Below, one piece after another: positions 3,736 through 64,000 of a stretch of 64,000 nt of DNA. Source of the stretch: Eucommia ulmoides (Eukaryota > Streptophyta > Magnoliopsida > Garryales > Eucommiaceae); the NCBI GenBank assembly GCA_016647705.1, contig CM028339.1:17316803-17380802 (forward strand), in the 5' to 3' direction. The notes under the pieces were generated by a model. It did not search any database, had not been told where the DNA came from, and saw nothing but the letters and a program-made list of their open reading frames with translations. Positions within the stretch are counted from its first letter, which is position 1; the number at the start of each line of letters is the position of its first letter. The position numbers were made by a program, and so were the translations under genes.

Positions 3736-5380
3736 TAATTCTTTTTATCACTATTGCTCAAGAATCAAAACCTCTTACAAGCACTTCAACTATCCTTTTA
3801 TCAGGTAAGGATGGAATCTTTACAAATCACTTACACTAATTCTATTCAGGAAGAATTAATAACTCAATCTCTTTACAGGAAGAGACTGAAATCCAACTAC
3901 CCTTGATTAAATACCCCTAATGATATTTAATTCATCACAACTCACCAATACATAAATTGATAAGTAAATCTCACTCAGGGCTTCTATCACCCCAAATAAA
4001 CAATAACTCAATTAATATCCCAATTAATGATAGAAAATCGTGAGATACAAAAAATCTGATTTTAACAAAATATGGGTAACAAATTGGAGCACGTAATCAT
4101 ATTCAAGAAATTATTTGTAAAAATATTTTCTTCAAAAATCAGAAATGATTTCTAAGATCAATTTTCAAAATATAAACAAGTAATGCAATGAAAGAATATA
4201 ATTGAAAAGATCTCACCCGGAATCCACAGAATAATTAGATAAGCAATGTAACTTCAGATCCGGTAACAGCACAAATTAATAGCAGTTCATCTTCAAGATC
4301 ACTCTTAGAATAACTCACAAACTCTCAGAAATATATCTCTAAGAAAAGCTCACTCTTATGATATGATATGATTTCTCTCTTATTGACTGCTTCATGATAT
4401 ATGAAATTCGCAGATCTATTTAAAAAAATATGTAATCAGCTTTCTAACGGCTAATTTACAAGTGTTATGATAATTAAACTCTCCTATAGACCCCTTATAT
4501 CATAAGGACTTCATTTAGGTTCAATTTCACTTAAAAACAACTTTCAAACTACTCAATTAAATTCCCAAAGTATTTCTCAATCTCAATTAATAAGAATAGA
4601 AATTATTTCATGTACCAAATTGAGAAATATTAATATTTAATGTACCAAATCAATAGGATTTAATTAATATATGAACCATATCTTAAATATCGAGAATATC
4701 CTTTAAATCTCTCTCAAATCTTAACAAAAAACGACTACTTTTGGATTTAAAATTGGATCAAACAATATTCTGAACCAGCACTCCTCAATCGACTGCCCAA
4801 CATCGCTTGCAGCCAAACCATCGCTGCAGCGATCATAAGTCGACCACTTAGTCGACTCGCAAATTCAGAGAGTTTGTCATGCTTTCATCGATCGACCACT
4901 TGATCGACTCGCAGATTAAGAAAGTTAAGATATTTTCATAGGTTGACTGGTCGGTCGACACTTCTCTGATCTCGTTTTTAACCTACTTTGTTTTACGATT
5001 TCGTCCCTTTATCCATTTTTATATTTAAATAAGTTCCACTAATATTCTTATATTCCATTTTAGTCATTCAAAAATATTTCTTTTTAATTCACATAGGAGT
5101 AAATAAATATACTTAACAAAAACACACATCAAAGATAAGATTCATTTTGTGTCATGTGTGTGTTCTTAAATGGGATATTAAGAGTTAATATTTATCTGGG
5201 TTGTTTTTCCTAATTTCTTCAAATTTTTAATACTTCTTCATCATCTTAATATCTTTATTAAACATCCATTCCATTTGACATCTTCACTACTAGAACTGTA
5301 AATCACTGAAACATTTGATCAAACATTAGTTCCACCAAAATATCAATATTTAATTGTTCATCAAAATCTTAGGATCAACA

Positions 5381-6447: not shown

Positions 6448-7991
6448 GGGATAAAGACCTTTTTGGTCCCTGACAAATGCCTCGGGTGTCTAATTGGCCC
6501 CTAACTTTTGCAATTCGACAATTTGGTTCTTGACATTTCAAAATCGTTCCAAATTAGCCCTTGAGTCGGGTTCCATTAGTCAAATTTGGGAAAATTGGAT
6601 GGAAAAAGTCATGTGACGTTTGGCTAAGGGTACATGCGTCATTTCATTCTTATTAATAAATTGGGACCTATTTACATATTTTGTTAAACTTAAGGGGTTA
6701 AAAATATTTTTTTTCTTTAATTTTTTTTCCCAGATCGTCTTCTTCCTCTCTGCTGCTGCTCTCCGATCCTTCGTTCACTTGCGTTATCTTCGTTTTTTTC
6801 GCCATCACTTGCGTCGTCTTCTCCATCACGTTCATCGTCTTCGGTTTCGATTAATTAAGGGAAGTGGAGGTTAGGGTTTCAATTACGAAATCGAAACCCT
6901 GTTTCGATTCGGTTTCATTTGGGTTTCAATCTCAAAATCGAAACCGAATCGATTTTGAGATCACAACCCAAACGAAACCGAATCAAAACAGGGTTTGGAT
7001 TTCAAAATCGATTCAGTTTCAATTTGGGTTTCGATTTCAAAATCGAAACCCAAATCGATTTTGATTATGAACAGGGTTTCGATTAGGTTCGATTTTGATG
7101 GTTTTCGTTGTTTTGGTGGCGATGTTCGGCGGTGTTCTTCAATTTCGAAATCGAAACCGTGGTTCGATTTGGGTTTCGATTTCGATTTCGAAATCGAAAT
7201 CGAAACCCAAATCGAACCACGGTTTCAGTTTTGATTTCGAAATCGAAACCCCTAGGTTCGATTTCTATGGTGTTCGTCGTTTTGGTGGTAATGTTCGGTA
7301 GTGTTCTTCGATTTCAATTTCGAAATCGAAGCTCCAAGGTTCGATTTCGACGGTGTTCGTTTTGATGTTGATGTTCGTTTTCGTGTTGATGTTGTGTTTT
7401 AATATGGGAGCCAAAAAAAAAAATATGATTATGTTCTGTTCCCTTATTTTTTACACAAAATTCTTAGAATATAATGGAATTGTTTTTATTTTCTCTTTTA
7501 TAGATGTTTGTATTTGGTTTGGTTGGATATGTCATTTCTTTTGTATTTTTTGGAGTTTTTCATTCATTTTTTAATGAAAAAAAAAATCAAATAATATTTC
7601 AAAAAAAAAATGTTGTTTTGTTCCCATAAATTTGTTGTTCCCATAATTAAAAATAAATAAATTATTGTTCCCATAATTTGTTATTCAATTGAGAAAGAAA
7701 TACCAAATTAAAAAAAAAAATGATTATGTTCTTTCAATTGAGAAAGAAAGATCAAAAAAAATATTTTGACTCCTTAAATTTAGATGACTTTTCAAAATTA
7801 ACTCCATTGTACGCGTAAAGACTAAAATACCCTTAATGAAACGTTAACCGTTAGTTGACTTAACGGAATCTGCCTCAGGGGCCAATTTGAAACGATTTTG
7901 AAATGTCAAGGGTCAAATTGTCGAGTTGCAAAAGTTAGGGGTCAATAGAACACCCAAGACATTTGTCAGAGATTAAAAAGGTCTTTATCCC
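6448..7991. mobile_element. non-autonomous Mutator-like element (possible Pack-MULE)
   Basis: Long terminal inverted repeats of about 125-140 bp begin GGGATAAAGACCTTTTT on the left; the complement of the right end reads the same, with roughly 85% agreement along the arm. The flanks are TAAAAATAA (6439-6447) and TAAACAATAA (7992-8001), a 9-bp target duplication with one inserted base. Long TIRs plus a 9-bp duplication are the mark of MULEs. The interior starts with a pyrimidine-rich, gene-5'-UTR-like stretch (about 6730-6870) and then palindromic repeats. No transposase is present. Confidence 0.82.
6875..7365. repeat. dense self-complementary repeat (GAAATCGAAA / TTTCGATTTC)
   Basis: Alternating copies of TTTCGATTTC and GAAATCGAAA produce many perfect inverted repeats, such as TTTCGATTTCGAAATCGAAA around 7177-7203. 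A larger unit with the text TTCGTTGTTTTGGTGGCGATG recurs at about 169-bp spacing (about 7100 and 7270, with a decayed third). Overlapping open frames here encode only Phe-Glu-Ile-Glu-Thr style repeats. They follow from the repeat's composition and are not evidence of a gene. Confidence 0.8.
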
Positions 7992-31448: not shown

Positions 31449-32562
31449 AGGTCATTCACGAATACATGTTTGATTTAGTTTAGTTTACATTAATGGTATT
31501 CAATCTATCCGACAATCTAGGTATCGTAAACTCGCTCACTACCTCTCTCGAGTGTAAAGTAAGCGAATATGTACTCGTGTCAATACCGATATCCCTATCT
31601 AGCATCTAAATGAGTACATGAGTCTTAACCCAACCTTACAGATTGCACACGTTCTAATAATCTCCCGAAATATTAGAATGTCGCGTTGTATTTAACCCTA
31701 GTCCGAATCTGGGGTTACTCCTCCCGAGTGTCAAACCCCATATTCTCAGATCAACCATAATACCATACAAAGCATACTATGGATGTAATAAAATGGTAAA
31801 CACAATCGGATATAGATGAACATGCACGTTCATGAACTAATCAATCCCTAGATAACAACTACTTAGCCACACATGATCATAACCAAATAGTCATTGAAAC
31901 ATGAGAATAACATCAATACACAAAGTTTAGAAACAAAGAGGGAATGGAAAATATGTACAGTGGATGGTTTCACTTTCGCAAACATCGCACCGAGATCGTT
32001 TCCTCATTCTCTAATGAGCTTTCCTTTTGGTAGGTTTGATCTAGGGCTTCTATTAAGTGTAAAAACATCCAAGGCAAGGTGTGGAATAGGTGGATACTAA
32101 AAGATTTCAAAAATATCCTAAAAATATCTGAAAAGATCTATGCCAGTTGTTGCTTGATCGTTGCAGCGATGAGAAGCATCCCTGCAGCTATGGGAGGTTA
32201 GTAGGGCTTCTACCCTTTCATCGTTGCAGCGATGAAGGCTATCGCTGCAGCAGTGGTTGGGCAGAAGATCCACTAACCTTTGGTTACTGCAGCGATAAAG
32301 GTCATCGTTGCATTGATCAAGGGCCAGTGGCCTTGTGATGCTGGTGCTGCAGCGATGGGTTTCATCGCTACGCGGTGAGGCTGCAGGCTCTCTTTCTGGA
32401 TCTTTTTCAACGTTTCTCCACTGACGTCCTATAGATTTGCAACCATTTTTGCCCCTACACCTGATTTACATAAAAACGAATAAAAATGATTCAAAACATT
32501 ACAAGAATACTCGAAAACTACCAAATTCGGCTTGAAAATATATAGATAAATTCAACCTATCA
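31449..32562 (-). repeat. 3' LTR of element B, truncated
   Basis: It aligns with 48177-49323 from TTCACGAATACATGTTTG onward and ends AACCTATCA, followed by the complement of purine tract AAGTTTGGCGGTATT. A variable array of CATCGCTGCAGCGATG-type palindromes lies at 32150-32385. The outer 250 bp is missing at the left. Confidence 0.85.
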
Positions 32563-34663: not shown

Positions 34664-35968
34664 TATACGATGATGCGTTTGTTACGCGCTCGCATATTGA
34701 CTACTCGCAAGTGCACGAGGTCCAGTTTTAATATAGTTGATCTTTAAGATCGGATATTGTTCCCACAGGGATGGGTTGAATAATTGAATACCTCAATTGG
34801 CATCATCTCCTATTATCTAGACGGTTAAAGAAATTATTTAAAATTAAACTAATTAAAACTAAGTTAAACTACAATTAGTGGGTTAATCCTAACTAAGTTG
34901 ATTACCTAGGGATTGATTTCGTTCACTTAACATATGTTTGATTTCGTTTAGTTGACAATAACGGTGTTATGGTATCCGACAATCTTGATTCGTAAACTCC
35001 TCCGCCACCTCTTCCGAGTGTAAGACGGGGGAATATGCGACTTCGTGTCAACGAAGAGGTCCCTCTTAACGTCTTAATGACTCTAGGTCACGTGAGTCTT
35101 ACCCCAACGTCATCGATTGCACACTCACTAACACCCTCCTGGGTCGTTAGATCGTAACGACGTGTTTACCCTAGTCCGAATCCAAGGTTAACTTTTCCGA
35201 GTGTCAAACCCTGTATTCTCAAATACAACCCTAATACCTTAACAAGCATACTAAGATCGTCATAAAATGATAAACACAATCAGAATTAAAAATAAACAAC
35301 CGTTAAAGAAACTTATATTAAATCAAACTAGTATTTACACAACTGTATCGATCTCTAGCTAATATTTATCTAATCTAACATGATCTTGGCCATTAAAACT
35401 ACAAACCAAGAGGGATTCATCATCATTTACAATAAAGTATTAAGTTACAAAGAGAGAAACAAAGAGAGATATATCAAATCTTAAAGTGGAGTGGTTTCCA
35501 CTTTTGCCGAAGATCAATCCGCCCATGTTTCCTCTTCTCCGGATGATGATTCTCCTCTTTGAGCTCTAAAAATATCTTATTCTCTGTACAGAGCTGACCG
35601 CCTAGGCGGTGGGTATGTCAGTTAACATTCTGATCGCTCACCACTTAGGTCGTGGGACTGCTCCAAACATTCTGTCTCTTCATGGCCTAGGCGGTGGAAT
35701 TACCGCCTAGGCCGTGGGAGTTGCTCATTTTTAGCACTTCTCTGCATTCTCACTGCCGCGGTGGTGGCTTCAACACTACGGCGGTGGCTCTTGTAATCTT
35801 GAAACCTTATTTCTTCACCATTTTTCCACCGTTTTCGCTCGTTTGTCGCTTGTTTGCCTCCCTACACCTGAATTACATAAAAACTATAAAAACGCAATTA
35901 AATATAACTAATTCACTCGAAAACTATCAAATTCGGCTTAGAAGTAGATAGATATTTTCTACCTATCA
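34664..35968 (-). repeat. 3' LTR of element C
   Basis: It aligns with 39534-40832 along its length (GTTACGCGCTCGC, TATTGACTACTCGCAAGTGC, GTCATCGATTGCACAC, ACCTATCA end). It contains six or more palindromes of the ACCGCCTAGGCGGT and CCGCGG type at 35597-35790. It is longer in the palindrome array than its partner LTR. Confidence 0.9.
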
Positions 35969-38028: not shown

Positions 38029-38719
38029 CCACGGTCCGGGTTCGGCTCGGTTTTATACAAAACCAAAATCAAAACCGCGAAACATATATAAAACCAAAAT
38101 GAAAACCGCCGCTTTCTTTTAAACGGTTTTAAAACCGGACCATTTAATTTTATTCAAAACCAAAGCCAAAACCGCAAAACTATGAAACCGTTTAAGAATT
38201 TTTAATTTATAAAAAAAAATCAAAACCAAAATCGCGAAACCGCAGACCATTGTTTCCTATATATGAAAAAAAATATATAACTAAAATATAACAACAGTCA
38301 TCAAATCATTCTCATACAATTAATTTTTAATTTTGCAAAATCAACTGATTAATTTTGAAGAGAAAATATAAAAAGTAAGATTTGAGAACCCTACCTATAA
38401 CTATATATTTATACTAGGGTTAGTGAGTAAAATCATTAACTTATAAAAAAAAAAAATAGGGATTAAACTGTAAATTTCTTATTTATGTGTGTGTGTGTGT
38501 GTATATCGGTTACAGGATTATACGATTCGGTCACGTGATTCGGTTATACAGTTCGATTACGCGGTTATTATCCCAAAACTAAAACCAAAACCAAAACTGT
38601 TTTGGTTGCTAAATTTAAAACTAGAACCAAGACCAAAACCATTTAGTCGGTTTCAATCCGAACCATTCGATTCGGTTTCTCTCGATTACACGTCGGTTCA
38701 GTTTTTTTGGGCATCCCTA
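38029..38719. mobile_element. hAT-type MITE
   Basis: The ends are TAGGGATGCCCA and its exact complement TGGGCATCCCTA-type right end, flanked by an 8-bp duplication TTTAGAGG (38021-38028 and 38720-38727). The 8-bp duplication and the terminus, followed by GGTTCGG-type text, fit known hAT-derived plant MITEs. The interior is rich in AAACCAAAACCG and its complement, and includes a (GT)n tract at 38486-38502. It lies in the interior of element C. Confidence 0.9.
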
Positions 38720-38767
38720 TTTAGAGGTGGTTGTGGCGTTTTTGTATAGCGGTATGGTTTTAATCAA

Positions 38768-38955
38768 ACAGAGGCCTCACCATTGCGGCGGTGTGAGCGC
38801 CTTTTTAAAATCAATTTTTTCTATCGTTTCACCGCCTAGGCAGTGAAGCGCCTTTTCTAAAAAACTTACACTCTGTTGTTTCACTGCCTCGGCGGTGAGA
38901 CGTTTATGCTGAAAACTTGACATCCTGCAATGTCATCGCCGCGGCGGTGAGCCTG
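38768..38955. repeat. palindrome array in the interior of element C
   Basis: Four palindrome-like words at 40-60 bp spacing: CACCATTGCGGCGGTG, CACCGCCTAGGCAGTG, CACTGCCTCGGCGGTG and CATCGCCGCGGCGGTG. The cores match those in C's LTRs (CCTAGG, CCGCGG) and not those of B. Confidence 0.8.
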
Positions 38956-39533: not shown

Positions 39534-40832
39534 TATATAACAATGCGTTTGTTACGCGCTCGCGTATTGACTACTCGCAAGTGCACGAGATCCAGTTTTA
39601 ATATAGTGGATCTTTAAGATCGAATATCATTCCCACAAGGACGGATTAAATAATTGAATACCGCAATTGGCATAGTCTCCTATTATCTAGACGATTAAAT
39701 AAATGATTTAAAATTAAATTAATTAAAACTAAGCTAAACTACAATTAATGGGTTAATCCTACCTAAGTTGATTACCTAGGGATTGATTTCGTTCACTTAA
39801 CACATGTTTGATTTCATTTAGTTAACAATAACGGTGTTATGGTATCCAACAATCTTGGTTTGTAAACTTCTCTGTTACCTCTTCCTAGTGTAAGACAGGG
39901 GAATACGCGACTTTATGTCAACGAAGAGGTCCACCTCAACGTCTTAACGACTCTAGGTCGCGTGACTCTTGCCCCAACGTCATCGATTGCACACTTACTA
40001 ATGCCCTCATGAGTCGTTAGATCATAAAGATATGTTTACTCTAGTCCGAATCCAGGGTTACCTCTTCCGAGTGTCAAACCATGTATTCTCAAATCCAACC
40101 CTAATACCTTAACAAGCATACTAAGATCATCATAAAATGATAAACACAATCAGAATTAAAAATAAACAACCGTTAAAGAAACATATATTAAATCAAACTA
40201 GTATTTACACAACTACATCGATCCTTAGCTAATATTTATCTAATCTAACATGATCTTGGCCATTGAAACTAAAAACCAAGAGGGATTCATCATCATTTGT
40301 AATAAAGTATTAAGTTACAAAAAGAGAAACAAAGAAAGAAAGATCAAATCTTAAAGTGGAATGGTTTCCACTTTCGCCGAAGATCAATTCGCCATTGTTC
40401 CCTCTTTTTCGGATGATGATTCTCATTTTTGAGCTCTTCAAGAATGACCAAGGATCACCTCCTAAGGGTTAGGGATGTTCCAGCCTTCCAACCTCTTTAT
40501 GGAAGTGGGAGAATGAGTATTTATAGGTGTAAAGTTTCAAAATATCTAAAATTATCTTCTTCTTTGTGCAGAGCTGACTGCCTAGGCCGTGGGAGTTGTT
40601 CATTTTTAGCACTTCTCTGTATTCTCACCACCATGGCGGTGGCTCTTGTGATCTTGAAACCTTATTTCTTTATCATTTTTCACAATTTTCCACCATTTTT
40701 GCTCGTTTGTCGCTTGTTTGCATCCTTGCACCTGAATTACATAAAAACTACAAAAACGCAATTAAATATAACTAATTTACTCGAACACTACCAAATTCGA
40801 CTTAGAAGTAGATATGTATTTTCTACCTGTCA
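39534..40832 (-). repeat. 5' LTR of element C
   Basis: Partner of 34664-35968. It begins next to the primer site and ends ACCTGTCA before the ATTAC duplication. Only two of the palindromes remain (about 40569-40650), so arrays differ in copy number between the two LTRs of one element. Confidence 0.9.
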
Positions 40833-41581
40833 ATTACCACACCCGTCTTCTAAAATAGCTCAGTGAGTAGAGATGGGAAGGGTAGACCAGTTTTGGTATT
40901 CCGGATTGCATATTGGATGGCCGAATTGATGAGAAACTCGATGTTCAATGGCTCGCCAGTCTCAATAGCATATAGAGTCAAGGATCTATCGTTGGTAACA
41001 TCAATCAGATGAGACGTCTGGTACAGGTTGGCGCATATGAAATGGAACCAAATTTTTAGAAATTTGTGCAAGTACTTGGATGGAAAAATAGTGAGATCTG
41101 GTCCCGTATGTAACCAATGCACATTGCCGGAACATAGCGTCCTGATGACCGTTTCTAAATATTCATGTACCATTTCTTTATCTGAATGTTTTTCTAGTTC
41201 CTTAGGAACCAACCTTAGTAGCTCGTTTATTGTGTCAACATCACACTTCACCACACGAGTCCGAACCTTGGTCTGGTGGTTCTCGGCTTCCACACAATTG
41301 GCGAAGAATTCACGAACTAAAGCTATATTGCCTGGGCCCGGCTGTCTACATAAGTGCTGCCAACCTTTTTCCTGAATCACATTGGCAATTTCATTCGGAA
41401 GTTCATCTATTTCGACAAAATTGCGCTCACGAATGCAATTACGCTTGTGCTCAAACCGATTGAAATGTTTCTCCGCTCATTTTGAAACGAATCGGCTTGA
41501 GTCATAATCCAAGGCGAGATCGTCGGATCGCGAATCGGATCCCTCACCCCTTTGACGCTTGGCAACGATTTTTTTCGGCAT

Positions 41582-42779
41582 GGTTTCTTTTTAATCCAAC
41601 ACACAAAAATCTGTCCCATATCACAATAGATCTTCACAAATGAACAAATAAGACCAAACCTTCAAGAACACCAATAATCCCCAAATGCACACACTAATCT
41701 CAAGATTTAAAAAAAAAATGCATACACTTGTCAACAATACTTGGATCTAACAAACATACCACCACTAAACACAGTGTTCTTCACCAAAAATCGACCCAAA
41801 ATCACATTGTCATGAAAATCGCAATAAGGGTTCAAGGGTTCCATACCAATAATCCACTTTCTCAATCAATCTTCAAATGAACAAGAAAATCAACACAATA
41901 TTGTAGCACACAAGTGTATTGTAGTTTCAAAACAACTTACTTGATGAATTTTTGAGCGCCCACTAGTTGGAAATTGAAGATTTTTCCTCTTTGAACTCTA
42001 ACCCTAGAACCACAAATTTGGGGCTTAAAATGCGATTTTGGTGGTTAATTTGCAGTGGGGATCTTTGTTTTTGAGTATGGGAGGATGGATTTGAGGTTAT
42101 CAAATGGTTTGGAGATGAAATTTGAAGAGTTTTGGGAGTTAGGATTTGATATTTTCGGTTTCATGAAACGGCGCCCCTATTTATCGAAATAAGGGGGCCA
42201 TCGTTGCAGCGATGAAAGTCCAGTGGGCTTTCTGACTTGCCATCGCTGCAGCAGTAAAATCCTTTGCAGCGATGGAACAACATAATGGCTTCTGCTTAAT
42301 GGTTGCTGTAACGATGCTTCTCATCGCTGCAGTGATCAAGGCTACAGTTTTTCAAATGGTTTTTCTGTATTTTTCTTCAAACGGTCTACCACCACTTCGT
42401 TTCCATTCCGCTATTTCATCACGTTCAAAATCATATAACTTCCTCAAATGTCCGAGCTCCTCCATTCACTTACAAACTTGCTTCGTGACCACTTCAACCT
42501 TCAAAGCATTACTATATCAAAAATTAGCTAAAACCAAATCTGTGGGTTGTATATCAAAAAAGGCGCTTGATTTAATGTCCCGAGTTGGACTTAGCAATGA
42601 TCCACATCAGTCGTAAACGAGGAAGATATTCTCCACAACTCGTTCTTTATTCCCAAAATAATGCTTGATTCTCTCCCCATTGACTTGAAAAATTCATCCG
42701 TCGTCACCTTCCAATTCAACTGAGCCGAATAGAAATACTTACTTGATCCAGAACGGTCCGAACCATCTGGACTTCAATT
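41582..42779 (-). other. leader between pol and ORF3 of element B, with palindrome array
   Basis: No open frame of note. At 42190-42335 there are five words of the type CATCGTTGCAGCGATG, CATCGCTGCAGCAGT and CATCGCTGCAGTGATC. Their core CTGCAG is the one found in B's LTRs. Position suggests a leader or promoter for ORF3, but that is inference. Confidence 0.6.
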
Positions 42780-45760
42780 TTTTGGGAAAGAGTCTCAGCC
42801 GAGAGTTGAAAAGTAAGACTTGTTGTCCTGGGTTGAACTTCCTCCTGACGATGTGATTATCGTGCCATTTCTTGGTTTTGTCTTTGTACAACTTGGCATT
42901 CTCATATGACTTATTTCAGAATTCATCCATCTTATTGAGTTGAAGGAGACGTTGGTTCTCTGAAGCATTGAGATCAAAATTTAGCTTATTTATGACCCAA
43001 CAGGCACGGTGCTCCAATTCTACTGGCAAATGGCATGCTTTCCCAAATACCAACCGATACGGTGTTTTAAATGCCATGCGGTATGCCCATAGTGGATCGT
43101 CTAATTTCACCGCCCAATCCTTACGGTTAGAGTGAACCGTCTTCTCCAATATCTATTTTATTTTTCTATTGGACACTTCAGCTTGACCATTTGTTTGGGG
43201 ATGGTAAGGAAGTGCTACCTTATGCCGGACTCTATACTTTGTCAGTAGAGTATTGAATATTTTATTACAGAAGTGGGTCCCTTCATCACTGATGATGGCT
43301 GAAGGAGTCCCGAACCTTGTTATTATGTTCTTCTGAAGAAATTTCAGAACCACCTTGGCATTGTTGGTTGGCATGGCCACAACCTCAATCCATTTTGACA
43401 CGTAATCCACTGCCAGCAAGATATACTCCTAACTAAAGGATGGCGAAAACGGTCCCATGAAATCAATCCCCCAAACATCAAAGAGCTCCAACTTGAGAAT
43501 GGATGTCAAGGGCAACTCATGCCGTCTTGAGACATTGTCAACCCTCTAGCATCGATCACAGGTTTTTCTAAATGTATATGAATCACAAAAAAAACGTCAG
43601 CCAATAAAAATTTGATTGAAGCACCTTAGCGGCCGTCTGTGTTGCTCCAAAATGCCCCCCACTCAGTGATGAATGGCAATGATATAGAATGCTTGCCATT
43701 TTCCCTTCTGGAACACATCGCCGAATGACTTGGTCGGCATAGTTTTGGAACAACATCGGATCATCCCACATATAATGCTTCACATCGAATAGGAATTTCT
43801 TCATTTAGGCACTTGAAAGGTCCGACGACAACACCTTGTACGCAAGATAATTGATTATATCCGCAAACCACAGAAGTTTAGCTTCAACATTGAACAATTA
43901 CTCATTAAGGAAAACTTCTGTGATACAAGAATCATCACCAACATCTTCTAGCACGAGTCGGGAGAGATGATCGGCTACCATATTCTTACTTCCCTTTTTA
44001 TCTCTAATCTCAGCATCAAATTCCTGATGCAAGAGAATCCACTGGATTATACCCAGCTTGGTGTCCTTCTTCGCCAAATAAGTACCGAATGATAGCATGG
44101 TTTGTATAGATAATCACTTTGGACCCTATAATGTAAGAACATAACTTATCACACGCGAAGACCACCGCCAACATCTCTTTCTCATTGGTGGTGTAATTCT
44201 CTTGAGTGTCATTTAGCGTTTTGCTTGCATAGTATATGGATTAAAAAATCTTGTCCTTGCGTTGGCCTAAAATAGCTCCAACTGCATAGGCGCTCGCATC
44301 ACACATGATTTTAAAAGGCTCATTCCAATCTGGAGCGACTATAATTGGAGTTGATATCAACTTCTCCTTCATGGAATTGAACGCTCCCACACAAGCATCA
44401 TAAAAAATGAACGGGGCATCATTTTCAAGCAAATGACATAACAGTTTCACCTTTTTAGAAAAATCTTTTATGAAATGCCGGTAGAAGCCGGCATGGCCTA
44501 AGAAACTTCGGACTCCCTATACATTGATTGGTGGTGAAAGTTTCTTGTCGTCTCAATCTTCGCCTGATCCATGAACACTTCCATTATATCTTCCACCATG
44601 TCCGAAAAGATAGCCATCATACATCGTTGGAACATTGTCGGAGCATTGCAAAAACCAAACGGCATACGACGGTATGCAAAGGTGTCGTACGGGCATGTGA
44701 AAGTTGTATTTTCTTGGTCTTACGGTACAATGGTTATTTGATTGTAGCCTGAATAGCCGTCAAGAAAGCAATAGTGGTCATAACCGGAGAGACGATCCAA
44801 CATTTGATCAATGAACGAGAGAGAAAAATTATCCTTCCGTGTGGCCTTGTTCAACTTTCTATAATTAATACACACTCTCCATCCAGTGATGGTTCATGTG
44901 GGAATTAGATCATGCATCTCATTTCTCACCACCGTCATGCCTCATTTCTTGGGAACCACTTGCACCGGACTCACCTATTCACTGTCTGATATAGCATATA
45001 TGATTACGGCATTTAATAACTTCAACACCTCAGCACGGACTACCTCCTTTATCGCCAGATTTATCCTTCTTTGGTGCTCAATAGAGGGCTTAAATGAGTC
45101 ATTCATCAAGATTTTATGCATGCAAATAGTCGGGCTAATTCCTTTGATGTCGAAAATAGACCACGCAAATGCAGATTTATGTCGTTTGAGGATACTAATC
45201 AATTTGTTCTCTTCTTCTTAAGTTAAAGATGATGAGATGATGACCGGATTGGTTGAGTTTTCCCCCAAGAATGTATACCGAAAGTGATCCGGTAATTTCT
45301 TGAGAATCAACCCACCATTAGGTGGATTTGAGGGATCAGGTGAACTAAATTCGTTATCAAGGGTCTCTACTTGAACCGAATCTACTACGTCTTTAGGTAC
45401 GTATTCCAAAGATAGGACATAGTCCATAACACCATCTTTCGTGGTTGAGCCTTTTTCACCAAAATCCTCTATAGATAGGGAATTTGTGAGAATATGCTCC
45501 AATGGATCCCGATTCAAGTTTTCATGAAAGAATTTTCTAACGCATGAGTCCACCACTTCCACTCGATTGCATGTTCGGTATTCATTTGGAAACTTCATTG
45601 TATTAAAAATATTGAACTTCACTTCATCATCATTCATCCTCAACGTTAAGTTCCCATTGTGAACGTCAATCAACGCCTTCCCGGTGGCGAGAAAAGGCCT
45701 CCCAAGTATTATAAGAATTTCCTGGTCCTCCTCCATTTCCAACACGACAAAATCCACTGA
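42780..45760 (-). pseudogene. pol of element B: reverse transcriptase, RNase H, integrase
   Basis: Reading down the minus strand: the protease tail (about 45650-45757) with ILIILGRPFLATGKALIDV; the reverse transcriptase N-part with VCINYRKLNKATRKD, YSGYNQI and RRMPFGFCNAPTMFQRCMM (about 44600-44870); RNase H text KIMCDASAYAVGAILGQR (44250-44330) and VADHLSRL (about 43970); the integrase zinc finger CHSSLSGGHFGATQTAAK (about 43640-43690); and the integrase core [30 protein letters not shown] and [14 protein letters not shown] (43153-43419). After FMD near 44566 the catalytic loop and about 57 following codons are missing and the sequence resumes at QAKIE, so reverse transcriptase is dead. Numerous stops are present. 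Confidence 0.85.
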
Positions 45761-47903: not shown

Positions 47904-47921
47904 TCCCCTGCAACAGAGCCA
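47904..47921 (-). other. primer-binding site of element B
   Basis: Minus-strand TGGCTCTGTTGCAGGGGA, a diverged tRNA-Asp-type site a few bases from the LTR end at 47928. Confidence 0.75.
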
Positions 47922-47927
47922 AAAACT

Positions 47928-49323
47928 TGTTCGCTGTATTTTAACGCTTTGATTTTACTCGCAATTGCACGAGGTCAAGTTTTAATAAAGTGGATCCGAA
48001 GATTGAGTGTCGTCCACTGGGATTTGTCGTAGGATTAGTTAAGTACTACAATTGACATAGCTTAATATTATCTAGACGTTTCAAGATTTGAATTGTGTTT
48101 GCTAATTGAAAACTAATTAGACCTAAAAACTTGGGATTAATTCTATGAAAATGGATTACCTAGGAATTAATTTCGTTCACGAATACATGTTTGATTTAGT
48201 TTAGTTTATATTAACAGTATTCAATCTATCCGACAATTTAGGTATCGTAAACTCGCTCACTACCTCTCCCGAGTATAAAGTAAGCAAATATGCACTCATG
48301 CCAACACCGATATCCCTATCTAGCTTCTAAACGAGTACATGAGTCTTAACCCAACCTCATGGATTCCACACATTCTAATAATCTCCCGAAACATTAGAAC
48401 GTCGCGTTGTGTTTAACCCTAGTCCGAATCTGGGGCTACCTCTTCCGAGTGTCAAACCCTGTATTCTCAAACCAACCATAATACCATACAAAGAATACTA
48501 TGGATGTAATAAAATGGTAAACACAATCGGATATAGATGAACAACCATTAACGAAACATGGATTCACTCAAACATGCATGTTCATGAATTAATCAATCCC
48601 TAGATAACAACTACTTAATCACACATGATCATAACTAAATATTCATTAAAATATGAGAATAACATCATTATTCAATACACAAAGTTTAGAAACAATGATA
48701 GAAACAAAAAGGGAATGGAAAATCTATAAAGTAGATGGTTCCATTTCCACAAAAATCGCTCCGCGATCGTTTCCTCTTTCTCTAATGAGCTCTCCTTCTG
48801 GTAAGTCTAATCTAGGGTTTCTATTAAGTGTAAAAACGTCTAAGGCAAGGTGTGGAATGGGTGGATACTAATAGATTTTGAAAATATCCTAAAAATATCT
48901 GAAAATATCTATGCCGGTTGTTCCTTGATCGCTGCATCAATGAGAGGTCAGTAGGGCTTCTACCCTTTCTCATTGTTGCAGCGGTGGTTGGGTAGAAGGT
49001 CCACTGACCTTTGGTCGCTGCAGCGATGAAGGCCATCGCTGCAGCGATCAAAGGCCAGTGGCCCTGTGATGCTGGCGCTGCAGTGATGGGTTTCATCACT
49101 GCAGCGGTGAGGCTGTAGGCTCTCTTTCTAGATCTTTTTCAATGTTTCTCCATCGACGTCCTACCAATTTGCTCGATTTTCAACCGTTTTCATCCCTACA
49201 CCTGATTTACATATAAAGAAAAAAAAAAAAAAAAAGACAAATAAAAATAATTTAAAACACTAAAAGAGCACTCGAAAAGTACCAAATTCACCTTGAAAAT
49301 ATATAGGTAAATTTAACCTATCA
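47928..49323 (-). repeat. 5' LTR of element B
   Basis: About 1.4 kb, from TGTTCGCTGTATT next to the primer site to AACCTATCA at 49323, where Tat gag sequence of element E resumes. A palindrome array at 48925-49110 includes the pair CGCTGCAGCGATGAAGGCC and CATCGCTGCAGCGATC (about 49015-49050). Confidence 0.9.
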
Positions 49324-52219: not shown

Positions 52220-53650
52220 TGATAGGTGTAATTAATTTATTTATTCTCAAGCCGATTTTGTTAGTTTTCGAGTATTTTTATAGCATTTTTATATGTTTTA
52301 ATTTATTTTAATTTATTTTGTCTTAAATTAGGTATTTTTGGTGAAAATGGACTAAAATGGTCCTAAACGATCATATCGGAGAGAGCCCAGTGGGAAAACA
52401 AGAAAAAAGAGGCAAGATTCCAAATCAGCAGACCCACCGCCGCGGCGGTAAAAGTGCTAGGAGTGTAGAAATCTCATCGCCGTAGCAATGAAAGTCCATA
52501 GAGTTTGTTGAATGGACCACCACCGCAGCGGTGAAACTCATCGCCGCTGTGGTCAAAATACAGAGAGTTTTCCTACTATTCTACCACTACAGCAATTAGC
52601 CACCGCCGCAATGGTGACCTTGCTGACATGCCCACCGCTGCGGCGGTGACTCTGCAGATATTTTGAGATATTTTAGGATATTTTGAGATATTTAGAATCC
52701 TATAAATATCGTCCCTATTCTCCCCAAACAAGAGGTTGACATTTTCAGGAGTCTTGAGAGCTCTAAGGCCATTCGACCAATAGAAGATCACCACACAAAG
52801 AAGGAGAAAGCGTTCTTGGTGCAGTTTTAGCGGCAGATTTTCAAATAATAGCTAAGTCTTCTCGTTTCTCTCTTCAATTCTTAGTTGGTTGAATGTTTGT
52901 ATATGTTTAACTTGTATTTAGTTGTATTTAGGGCTAAGACCATGTGTAGCTAAACATATATTGTCTATGGATTGATATACTTCATGTAAACGTTGTTTAT
53001 ATAAAATCTATATTTCGTTAATGGTTATTCGTGTTTATCCGATTGTGTTTTCCATTTTTCCTTGTTTATTATGCTTGTTATGATATATTGAGAATACGGA
53101 ATTTGACACTCAAGAAAGGTAACCCCGGATTCGGATTAGGGTTTAAACACAACGCGACGATCTAATAACTCGGGAGGGAGTTAGAGAGTGTGCAATCCAT
53201 AACATTGGGGCAAAACTCGTATGACCTAGTGTCGTTAGACGTTGAGGGGGACTTCTTCATTGACGCGAAATCACATATTCATTCACTTTACACTCGGGAG
53301 AGGTAGTAAATGAGATTTCGATATAAAGATTGTCGGATAAGATGAACATTGTTAATGTAAACTAGATTGAAACGAACACGTTTATGTGAATGAAGTTAAT
53401 CTCTAGGCAATAATTTCCCATAAACGTCATACCACTATATTAGTATATTAGATTAATTAACTTAGTTTAGTATATTATTAATTATAAACCAATTTTTATC
53501 GCCTTGATAAAGTTAGGTTATGATAATTGCGGTACTCGACGATAATCTCAACCAATCCCTATGGATACGACAACCCCTACTCTTCCAATCTATACTAAAA
53601 CTTAACCCATACACTTGCGGTGAAAGTAGCGACGCATCTGCGCGCTACCA
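52220..53650 (+). repeat. 5' LTR of element D
   Basis: It starts TGATAGGTGTAATTAATTTA and ends CGCGCTACCA. The first 70 bases reappear at 63711 with few changes. A palindrome array at 52433-52655 includes CACCGCCGCGGCGGTA, CACCGCAGCGGTGA and CACCGCTGCGGCGGTGA. The 3' half matches the relic at 28889-29618. Confidence 0.92.
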
Positions 53651-53656
53651 AGTTTT

Positions 53657-53675
53657 TGGCGCCGTTATCGGGGAT
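53657..53675 (+). other. primer-binding site of element D
   Basis: TGGCGCCGTTATCGGGGAT, two changes from the tRNA-Asp-complementary TGGCGCCGTTGCCGGGGAT, six bases after the LTR end. Confidence 0.85.
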
Positions 53676-63710: not shown

Positions 63711-64000
63711 TGATAGGTGTAATTTATCTATTTATTCCCAAATCTATTTTGTTAGTTTTCAAGTATTTTTATAGCGTTTTTATATGTTTTAATATATTTT
63801 TATTTATTTTGTCTTAAATTAGGTATTTGGGGGTGAAAAAGAACTAAAACCGTCCTAAACGATCATATCGGAGTGAGCCCAATGGAAAAACGAGCAAAGA
63901 GGCAAGATTCCAAAGCAGCAGACCCACCGCCGCTGTAGTGAAAGTGGTGGGAGTGTAGAAATCTCACCGCCAATTCTTTAAAATTTTACACTTAAGGTGT
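63711..64000 (+). repeat. 3' LTR of element D (partial, continues beyond window)
   Basis: TGATAGGTGTAATTTATCTA..., aligned with 52220 onward through AACGATCATATCGGAG and CAAGATTCCAAA.CAGCAGA. The first palindrome (CACCGCCGCTGTAGTG) differs from the corresponding CACCGCCGCGGCGGTA in the 5' LTR. Confidence 0.9.

Follow-up and report, generated by a model that had tools for sequence, protein, structure and literature searches.

The Sireviruses of the Ty1/copia superfamily carry element-specific, palindromic repeated motifs upstream of the LTR TATA box and upstream of ENV, and these words vary among elements yet remain palindromic. In the passages available, their authors reported support for an internal promoter, which was not conclusively identified (PMC2829016). 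In maize, Sirevirus palindrome clusters are described as collecting small RNAs, and the Ty3 elements as generally having no structure peak (PMC10760457, in part). An annotated ENV ORF promoter is given for the Arabidopsis element Athila6A (PMC4977677, in part). A further system is VANDAL/VANC, in which family-specific short words in tandem non-coding arrays are matched to a trans-acting factor (Hosaka 2017, PMC5735166, in part).

The window analysed here is a stretch of 64,000 nucleotides of the Eucommia ulmoides genome, and copies of its elements were searched for in the assembly (947 Mb, 391 contigs). Three related Ty3-type families, referred to as B, C and D, were found to carry arrays of ∼16-bp inverted-repeat words in the U3 of their LTRs. 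An earlier note on this DNA knew of no named element of this kind; the arrangement is that of the Sirevirus repeated motifs, as far as the passages of that paper describe them (PMC2829016). A description of such palindromic arrays in Ty3/Athila LTRs was not found among the titles, abstract openings and passages surveyed, most subscription papers lying outside that set.

Word arrays in the LTRs of three related families

B and C are minus-strand LTR elements, with C nested within B, and D lies on the plus strand, with the window ending inside its 3′ LTR. The features of the elements are located as follows.

32150..32385, minus strand: B 3′ LTR array (B1), CTGCAG-type words
35597..35790, minus strand: C 3′ LTR array (C1), six words of CCTAGG and CCGCGG types
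40569..40650, minus strand: C 5′ LTR array (C2), shortened to two words, with breakpoints apparently inside words
40853..41476, minus strand: B third ORF piece, PF20167 (E 3.7e-35)
43156..43428, minus strand: B integrase core piece (rve, E 6.2e-13)
44244-44516 and 44501-44719, minus strand: B RNase H and RT pieces, upstream of the integrase piece
47905..47921, minus strand: B primer-binding site, Asp-type, 3 mismatches
48925..49110, minus strand: B 5′ LTR array (B2), CTGCAG-type words, two of which form, together with their flanks, an inverted repeat of ∼70 bp
52220..53655, plus strand: D 5′ LTR, starting TGATAGGT
52435..52648, plus strand: D LTR U3 array, words at 52435, 52475, 52518, 52539, 52601 and 52633
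near 52584, plus strand: weak extra word of the D array, seen by eye
53657-53673, plus strand: D primer-binding site, Asp-type, 2 mismatches
63711..64000, plus strand: D 3′ LTR, truncated at the window end, with its first word at position 63925

The pieces RVT_1, RT_RNaseH_2 and rve of B, which were searched apart, follow the Ty3 order and precede the PF20167 ORF; no pol piece belonging to C or D themselves was detected in the domain search of the window. A tRNA-Asp type primer-binding site is a feature of the Athila lineage. Such a site was absent from C at up to 3 mismatches, and a similar site scoring at least 17/23 was present at 14 of 30 D loci and 10 of 30 B loci. The Athila arrangement, in which the RT, RNase H and integrase order is followed by an extra ORF past the integrase, is present in B only. 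The Athila-type label is thus plausible from domain order, primer-binding site and third ORF, the RT in the window being broken. The copia genes within D were considered as its own and ruled out, as they belong to an insert nested in the D interior between flanking 173-bp repeats that are 98% identical.

The arrays were compared with 1000 dinucleotide shuffles, a near-palindrome being a non-overlapping 16-mer in which 6 or more of the 8 pairs are complementary. The five arrays, which the earlier note had reported, held 17 near-palindromic 16-mers; the shuffles had 3.4 on average and never more than 10. Taken singly, D, B2, C1 and C2 were each matched by 2–14 of the 1000 shuffles, and B1 was not significant alone, with 80 of 1000 shuffles reaching it. 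The arrays do not show a CpG island signature (CpG observed/expected 0.35–0.94; window 0.82), and their GC content is 52–56% versus 37%.

We then drew 40 scored matches per family from 5745, 3569 and 6259 candidates for D, B and C, respectively, from which 30 D, 30 B and 20 C loci, together with the window copies, were taken. Matches to the word template of at least 12/14 numbered 152 in the D LTRs (n = 30), 115 in the B LTRs (n = 31), 100 in the C LTRs (n = 22) and 0 in a control of 44 kb (window 6001-28000, both strands). The copies contained 214 D, 197 B and 148 C word matches, with 5–9, 4–8 and 3–9 per LTR slice. Aligned tests used 194, 190 and 129 of these units at 7, 8 and 7 positions; positions with fewer than 9 copies and one off-array C group were left out, which removed stray matches but also two real additional D positions, seen in 7 and 5 copies, and one C position seen in 6.

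Each family presented its own word. The commonest D word was CACCGCC-GC-GGCGGTG, accompanied by CGCA variants; the commonest B word was CATCGCT-GC-AGCGATG, and the commonest C word CACCGCC-TA-GGCGGTG, with the two leading C positions of the GC type. The C and D words differ solely in the central two bases (TA versus GC), and the B word stands two symmetric transition pairs apart from that of D. Different cores in different families, as the earlier note had proposed, were confirmed across the genomic copies: T7/A10 occurred in 188 of 197 B units, a TA centre in 90 of 148 C units and a GC centre in 129 of 214 D units. The description of D as mainly CCGCGG was correct in part, since the commonest word at 2 of its 7 aligned positions was CACCGCCGCAGCGGTG, with one pair broken, and at a third was of the CTGCAG type. 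The 16-mers quoted for the families were partly idealised; that of D occurs at 52435, and the exact B and C words are missing from the window. Most units are imperfect, with full 8/8 palindromes accounting for only 6 of 214 in D, 7 of 197 in B and 13 of 148 in C. The genome contains 11,873 occurrences of CACCGC-N4-GCGGTG, with 8 of its reversed control, and 494 of CATCGC-N4-GCGATG, with 0 for the control. The words may also resemble transcription factor sites, candidates being the CACCG of ERF/ABI4 and the GCGGCG of LOB, a likeness that does not enter into the interpretation below.

Arrays also differ in length between LTRs that appear to belong to one element. The two C LTRs differ in unit number, as had been noted before, with six words against two (6 against 3 by a looser count); a 20-bp gap leaves a hybrid word in C2, and further losses are present. 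The B1 and B2 LTRs are separated by two 21-bp gaps and have equal word counts by template. Among apparent D LTR pairs, L007/L012 differ in length by 20 bp and L019/L022 by 40 bp, and in the third pair, L003/L027, the two LTRs have the same number of words and are distinguished by a gap of only 12 bp.

Further variants were observed by the side of these families. In one C copy (L064) the spacers are homologous and, by eye, the words are CCGCGG-like where most copies have CCTAGG, the switch affecting several positions at once. Two apparently nested LTR arrays hold more variants, CACGGCC... in L106 and a mix of CCGCGG and CCTAGG in L108. At 4790-4960 of the window, a fragment of another element carries one B-type word at 4819 and AAGATATTTT at 4928, together with a different inverted word type (GTCGACC...GTCGAC-like), and is probably the array of a further family. 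A perfect 74-bp palindrome lies at 7153-7226, outside B, C and D.

Arrays at the LTR promoter and before the third ORF

In D and C, the LTR array mostly ends at a similar distance ahead of the TATA box. In D this distance is ∼50 bp, with an offset of 52 bp in 22 of 30 copies, and in C it is 49–51 bp in 13 of 22 copies. A canonical TATA was missing within 140 bp of the B LTR array in 30 of 31 copies, for which the slices may end early. The earlier note had placed the words 30–60 bp apart; the measured spacing was mostly 19–21 and 39–43 bp, with 32 bp in D and about 50 bp in C. The 19 modal intervals gave R=0.78 at 10.5 bp, i.e., near whole helical turns, and the 12 distinct within-family intervals gave R=0.72, which random uniform sets reach in 0.14% of cases and, with a free period, in 1.7%. 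Multiples of ∼21 bp could stem from the duplication of a 21-bp module.

A second motif lies past the arrays. AGATATTTT, the reverse complement of the evening element (PMC3639509, in part), was counted on either strand in the 90 bp past the array 57 times in 2700 bp of D, 26 times in 2790 bp of B and 32 times in 1892 bp of C. Before the array, it was counted 0 times in 6800 bp of D, 0 times in 6514 bp of B and once in 4316 bp of C. This concentration is a possible sign of clock or cold input to the promoters.

Words of the same families were also found inside the elements. The features past the D array and at the internal sites are as follows.

52656..52709, plus strand: D LTR, AGATATTTT repeats at 52656 and 52666, then CTATAAATAT at 52700
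42199..42337, minus strand: B internal array, located between the integrase and third ORF pieces, with words of the CTGCAG type
42178..42185, minus strand: TATA-like GATAAATA, directly past the B internal array and within a 30-bp inverted repeat
38778..38949, minus strand: C internal array, four words at steps of exactly 52 bp, with CGCG, CGAG, CTAG and CGCA as sense cores
38717-38724, minus strand: TATA-like CTAAATAG, past the C internal array

The B internal site was surveyed in 21 copies, comprising the window and 20 copies (L112-L131) fetched from 40 scored genome matches. B-core words were present in all 21, with 1–6 matches each and one copy with a single match, and T7/A10 was found in 73 of the 79 internal word matches. 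A TATA-like box lay close behind the words in every copy (GATAAATA in 16 of 21, GATAAATAGGGG in 13 of 21, near variants elsewhere), and the 30-bp inverted repeat around it (42155-42195, minus strand) retained a mean of 9.9 of 13 pairs over the 21 copies. We consider the B internal array and its TATA-like box to be a concrete candidate for an internal ENV promoter. In the window, 6.6 kb separate this array from that of the 5′ LTR and 9.8 kb from that of the 3′ LTR, the latter distance being about 3.7 kb without the nested C element. The C internal cores also occur in the C LTRs, as seen in the one window copy, where the LTR arrays are as close as 1.6 and 3.0 kb to the internal one. Internal arrays were absent from three short D elements, which gave one weak match.

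B internal stretches that were taken blind (L105-L108) were rejected, as three held other, apparently nested, LTR arrays and one held none. L083 and L103 (contig C1:127090) represent a relative of the B internal stretch, at 72% and 67% identity, whose words have CACCG arms and TGCA or TATA cores.

The best evidence for a trans-acting reader is that a family word occurs at distinct promoter-like sites whose intervening sequence is unrelated. On balance, we lean towards the arrays being promoter-proximal cis-regulatory modules of Athila-like Ty3 elements and predicted sites for a dimeric factor. Each word would consist of two inverted half-sites, of the CACCGCC or the CATCGCT type, bound by a symmetric protein dimer, and several words would share roughly one face of the DNA directly upstream of the core promoter. 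With the family word at the LTR U3 and before the third, ENV-position ORF, one trans-acting factor could drive both transcripts. Active lineages, presumably under selection, would have switched the half-site and spread it through word-sized gains and losses (20, 21 and 40 bp indels; hybrid words), and copies would decay neutrally once inserted. The earlier note had offered a hairpin, a dimer site and homogenisation side by side. We favour the dimer site, since the family word is found again at a second promoter-like site several kilobases off (6.6 kb from the 5′ LTR array in the B of the window), which local homogenisation leaves unexplained.

A more specific version, that the families encode their own dimeric reader (e.g., the third-ORF product), an activator or anti-silencing protein co-evolving with the word, seems to us quite improbable. 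If true, it would represent a self-specific lock and key in Ty3 elements, comparable to VANC in VANDAL.

Pairing of the word halves and the alternative explanations

The earlier note had also proposed that both halves of a word change together, and this was found to hold between families only. For the commonest words at 22 aligned positions, 159 of 176 pairs were complementary; permuting right halves across families gave a mean of 136.8 pairs and reached 159 in 0 of 5000 trials, and permuting them within a family gave a mean of 155.9 and reached 159 in 390 of 5000. Some array positions keep non-palindromic commonest words, such as the CGCA type of D. Within aligned genomic copies, cells changed on both sides numbered 42 in D and 32 in B, where 46.9 and 39.1, respectively, were expected, thus giving no sign of compensatory evolution after insertion in either family; half-sites that mutate independently, which the note had named as the observation speaking against it, are what these copies present. 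The C family gave 38 against 28.1 (z 2.6), with its family substructure (L064, mixed word types) uncontrolled. When halves were reshuffled among all units of a family, the mean pairing was 5.19 observed versus 5.18 reshuffled in D, 5.30 versus 5.49 in B and 5.64 versus 5.15 in C, which mixes two word types. Compensatory change therefore fails for single D and B copies and holds for the family words, and C carries the z of 2.6 only.

Among the first 100 rows listed for the genome-wide words, all on contig C1, core halves were mostly homotypic: the partner of a CT half was CT in 64 cases and CG in 9, and that of a CG half was CG in 37 cases and CT in 9, at overall half frequencies of 0.324 for CT and 0.196 for CG. 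Pair 3-14 was weakly coupled genome-wide (494 TT, 3309 mixed, 11,873 CC; F about 0.11), mixed words being about 11% fewer than for independent halves. As half-sites decay independently in D and B, what is constant is the identity of two inverted half-sites and not compensation within copies. Self-complementarity is a property of the family word, i.e., of two inverted copies of one half-site.

Neighbouring words were examined for complementarity beyond that within words. Between close words (18–22 bp) the excess was +5.4 points in B (CI 3.2 to 7.6) and +5.0 points (2.2 to 7.7) in C′, whose loci were chosen for CTAA/TTAG words; it was absent in D (-0.1; -2.5 to 2.5) and C (-2.8; -6.1 to 0.4). 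In C′ the close pairs had cores CTAA then TTAG in 11 of 31 cases and the reverse order in 1, and core complementarity was 89.5% between neighbours versus 66.9% within words. Inverted coupling between neighbouring words gave z -0.3 in D, 2.5 in B and 2.7 in C, and direct homogenisation z -0.6, 0.5 and 2.2, with relatedness uncontrolled in C. The inverted repeat of one B pair reaches into the flanks, where a mean of 11.4 of 16 pairs was found in 26 copies. This neighbour-level complementarity fits either hairpin selection or fold-back copying.

Among the alternatives, hairpins in RNA or DNA survive best, although we regard them as unlikely. Neighbouring words would pair in the transcript, since the genomic RNA contains the U3 at its 3′ end, and would feed siRNA production or RNA dimerisation, with selection acting on complementarity and not on the sequence itself. 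The three arrays that were folded gave strong predicted structures (z -6.8 for D, -13.2 for B2 and -5.8 for C1), maize Sirevirus palindrome clusters attract small RNAs (cited in PMC10760457, in part), and the words of close pairs in C′ and B complement each other more than themselves, which fold-back copying predicts as well. Changes on both sides of the stem of the B pair exceeded shuffles (13 pairs versus 8.1 and 24 cells versus 13.5, 0 of 500), and its within-word structure had no such excess (5 versus 4.6). However, the stem excess comes mainly from a single T-A to C-G switch that 8 sequences share, with relatedness uncontrolled, and the flanks showed no copy-level coupling (296 paired cells versus a permuted mean of 289 and maximum of 302). 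The neighbour excess is missing in D and C and the C′ loci were picked by word. In addition, any two palindromes from one family pair automatically, and a lone 16-nt word places its core in the loop, where complementarity is unneeded. Hairpins also do not predict the helical spacing or the location by TATA boxes.

Purely mutational spread, by unequal recombination, replication slippage or fold-back template switching (quasipalindrome correction) with no function, appears unlikely too, and we place it below hairpins. It is in agreement with the 20 and 40 bp differences within LTR pairs, the two 21-bp gaps of B1/B2, the hybrid word of C2 and the independent decay of half-sites, and fold-back copying yields coupled changes; quasipalindrome template switching is documented in E. 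coli (PMC7202029, in part). On the other hand, L003/L027 and B1/B2 have equal word counts, and mutational spread leaves unexplained both the same family word kilobases apart, with unrelated sequence between, and arrays that stay at promoters while the spacers diverge. Symmetric CpG/CHG deamination, which would have made CTGCAG from CCGCGG and given apparent compensation without selection, is very improbable: the D–B word differences are C>T/G>A on both sides, the D CGCA words resemble an intermediate and 89–93% of CG and CHG changes in D and B copies are of the deamination type (69–90% in C), but CCTAGG requires transversions, and most commonest B words have kept the arm CpGs (positions 4-5 and 12-13) and lost those of the core.

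Comparison with known systems

The arrays are real, abundant and promoter-linked, and they are most likely binding sites for a dimeric factor, as judged from sequence. In comparison with Athila6A, the likeness is a Ty3 Athila element with an internal promoter ahead of the ENV ORF; the difference is that palindrome arrays are not mentioned for that promoter in the passages available (PMC4977677).

The VANC motif arrays may be viewed as the nearest functional analogue of the family-specific words, which likewise turn over between related elements. In contrast to the present families, VANDALs are DNA transposons, their words are not described as palindromic in the available passages (PMC5735166), and a cognate element-encoded protein is known there and none here. 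The thousands of copies of the family words represent natural binding-site variants, which can be exploited for finding the factor and testing element–factor co-evolution.

The Sirevirus layout shares the most with the arrays described here. An element-specific palindromic word stands in the LTR upstream of the TATA box in D and C, with B having no canonical TATA in 30 of 31 slices, and extra copies before the ENV-position ORF occur in 21 of 21 B copies and in one C copy, and in none of the three short D elements. The OPIE-2/PREM-2 word CACCGG...CCGGTG has its outer CACCG/CGGTG in common with the C and D words. The differences are that the host is Ty3, as shown by the RT, RNase H and integrase pieces of B, and not Ty1/copia; that the repeated-motif (RM) arrays of Sireviruses define CpG islands, whereas those seen here do not; and that a TATA-like box adjoins the internal array in 21 of 21 B copies. 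The layout itself is therefore already known from the copia Sireviruses, and what appears to be new is that Athila-like Ty3 elements share it and offer a candidate internal promoter that is clearer. Two unrelated plant LTR superfamilies appear to share a promoter design, which points to a common host factor or rule.
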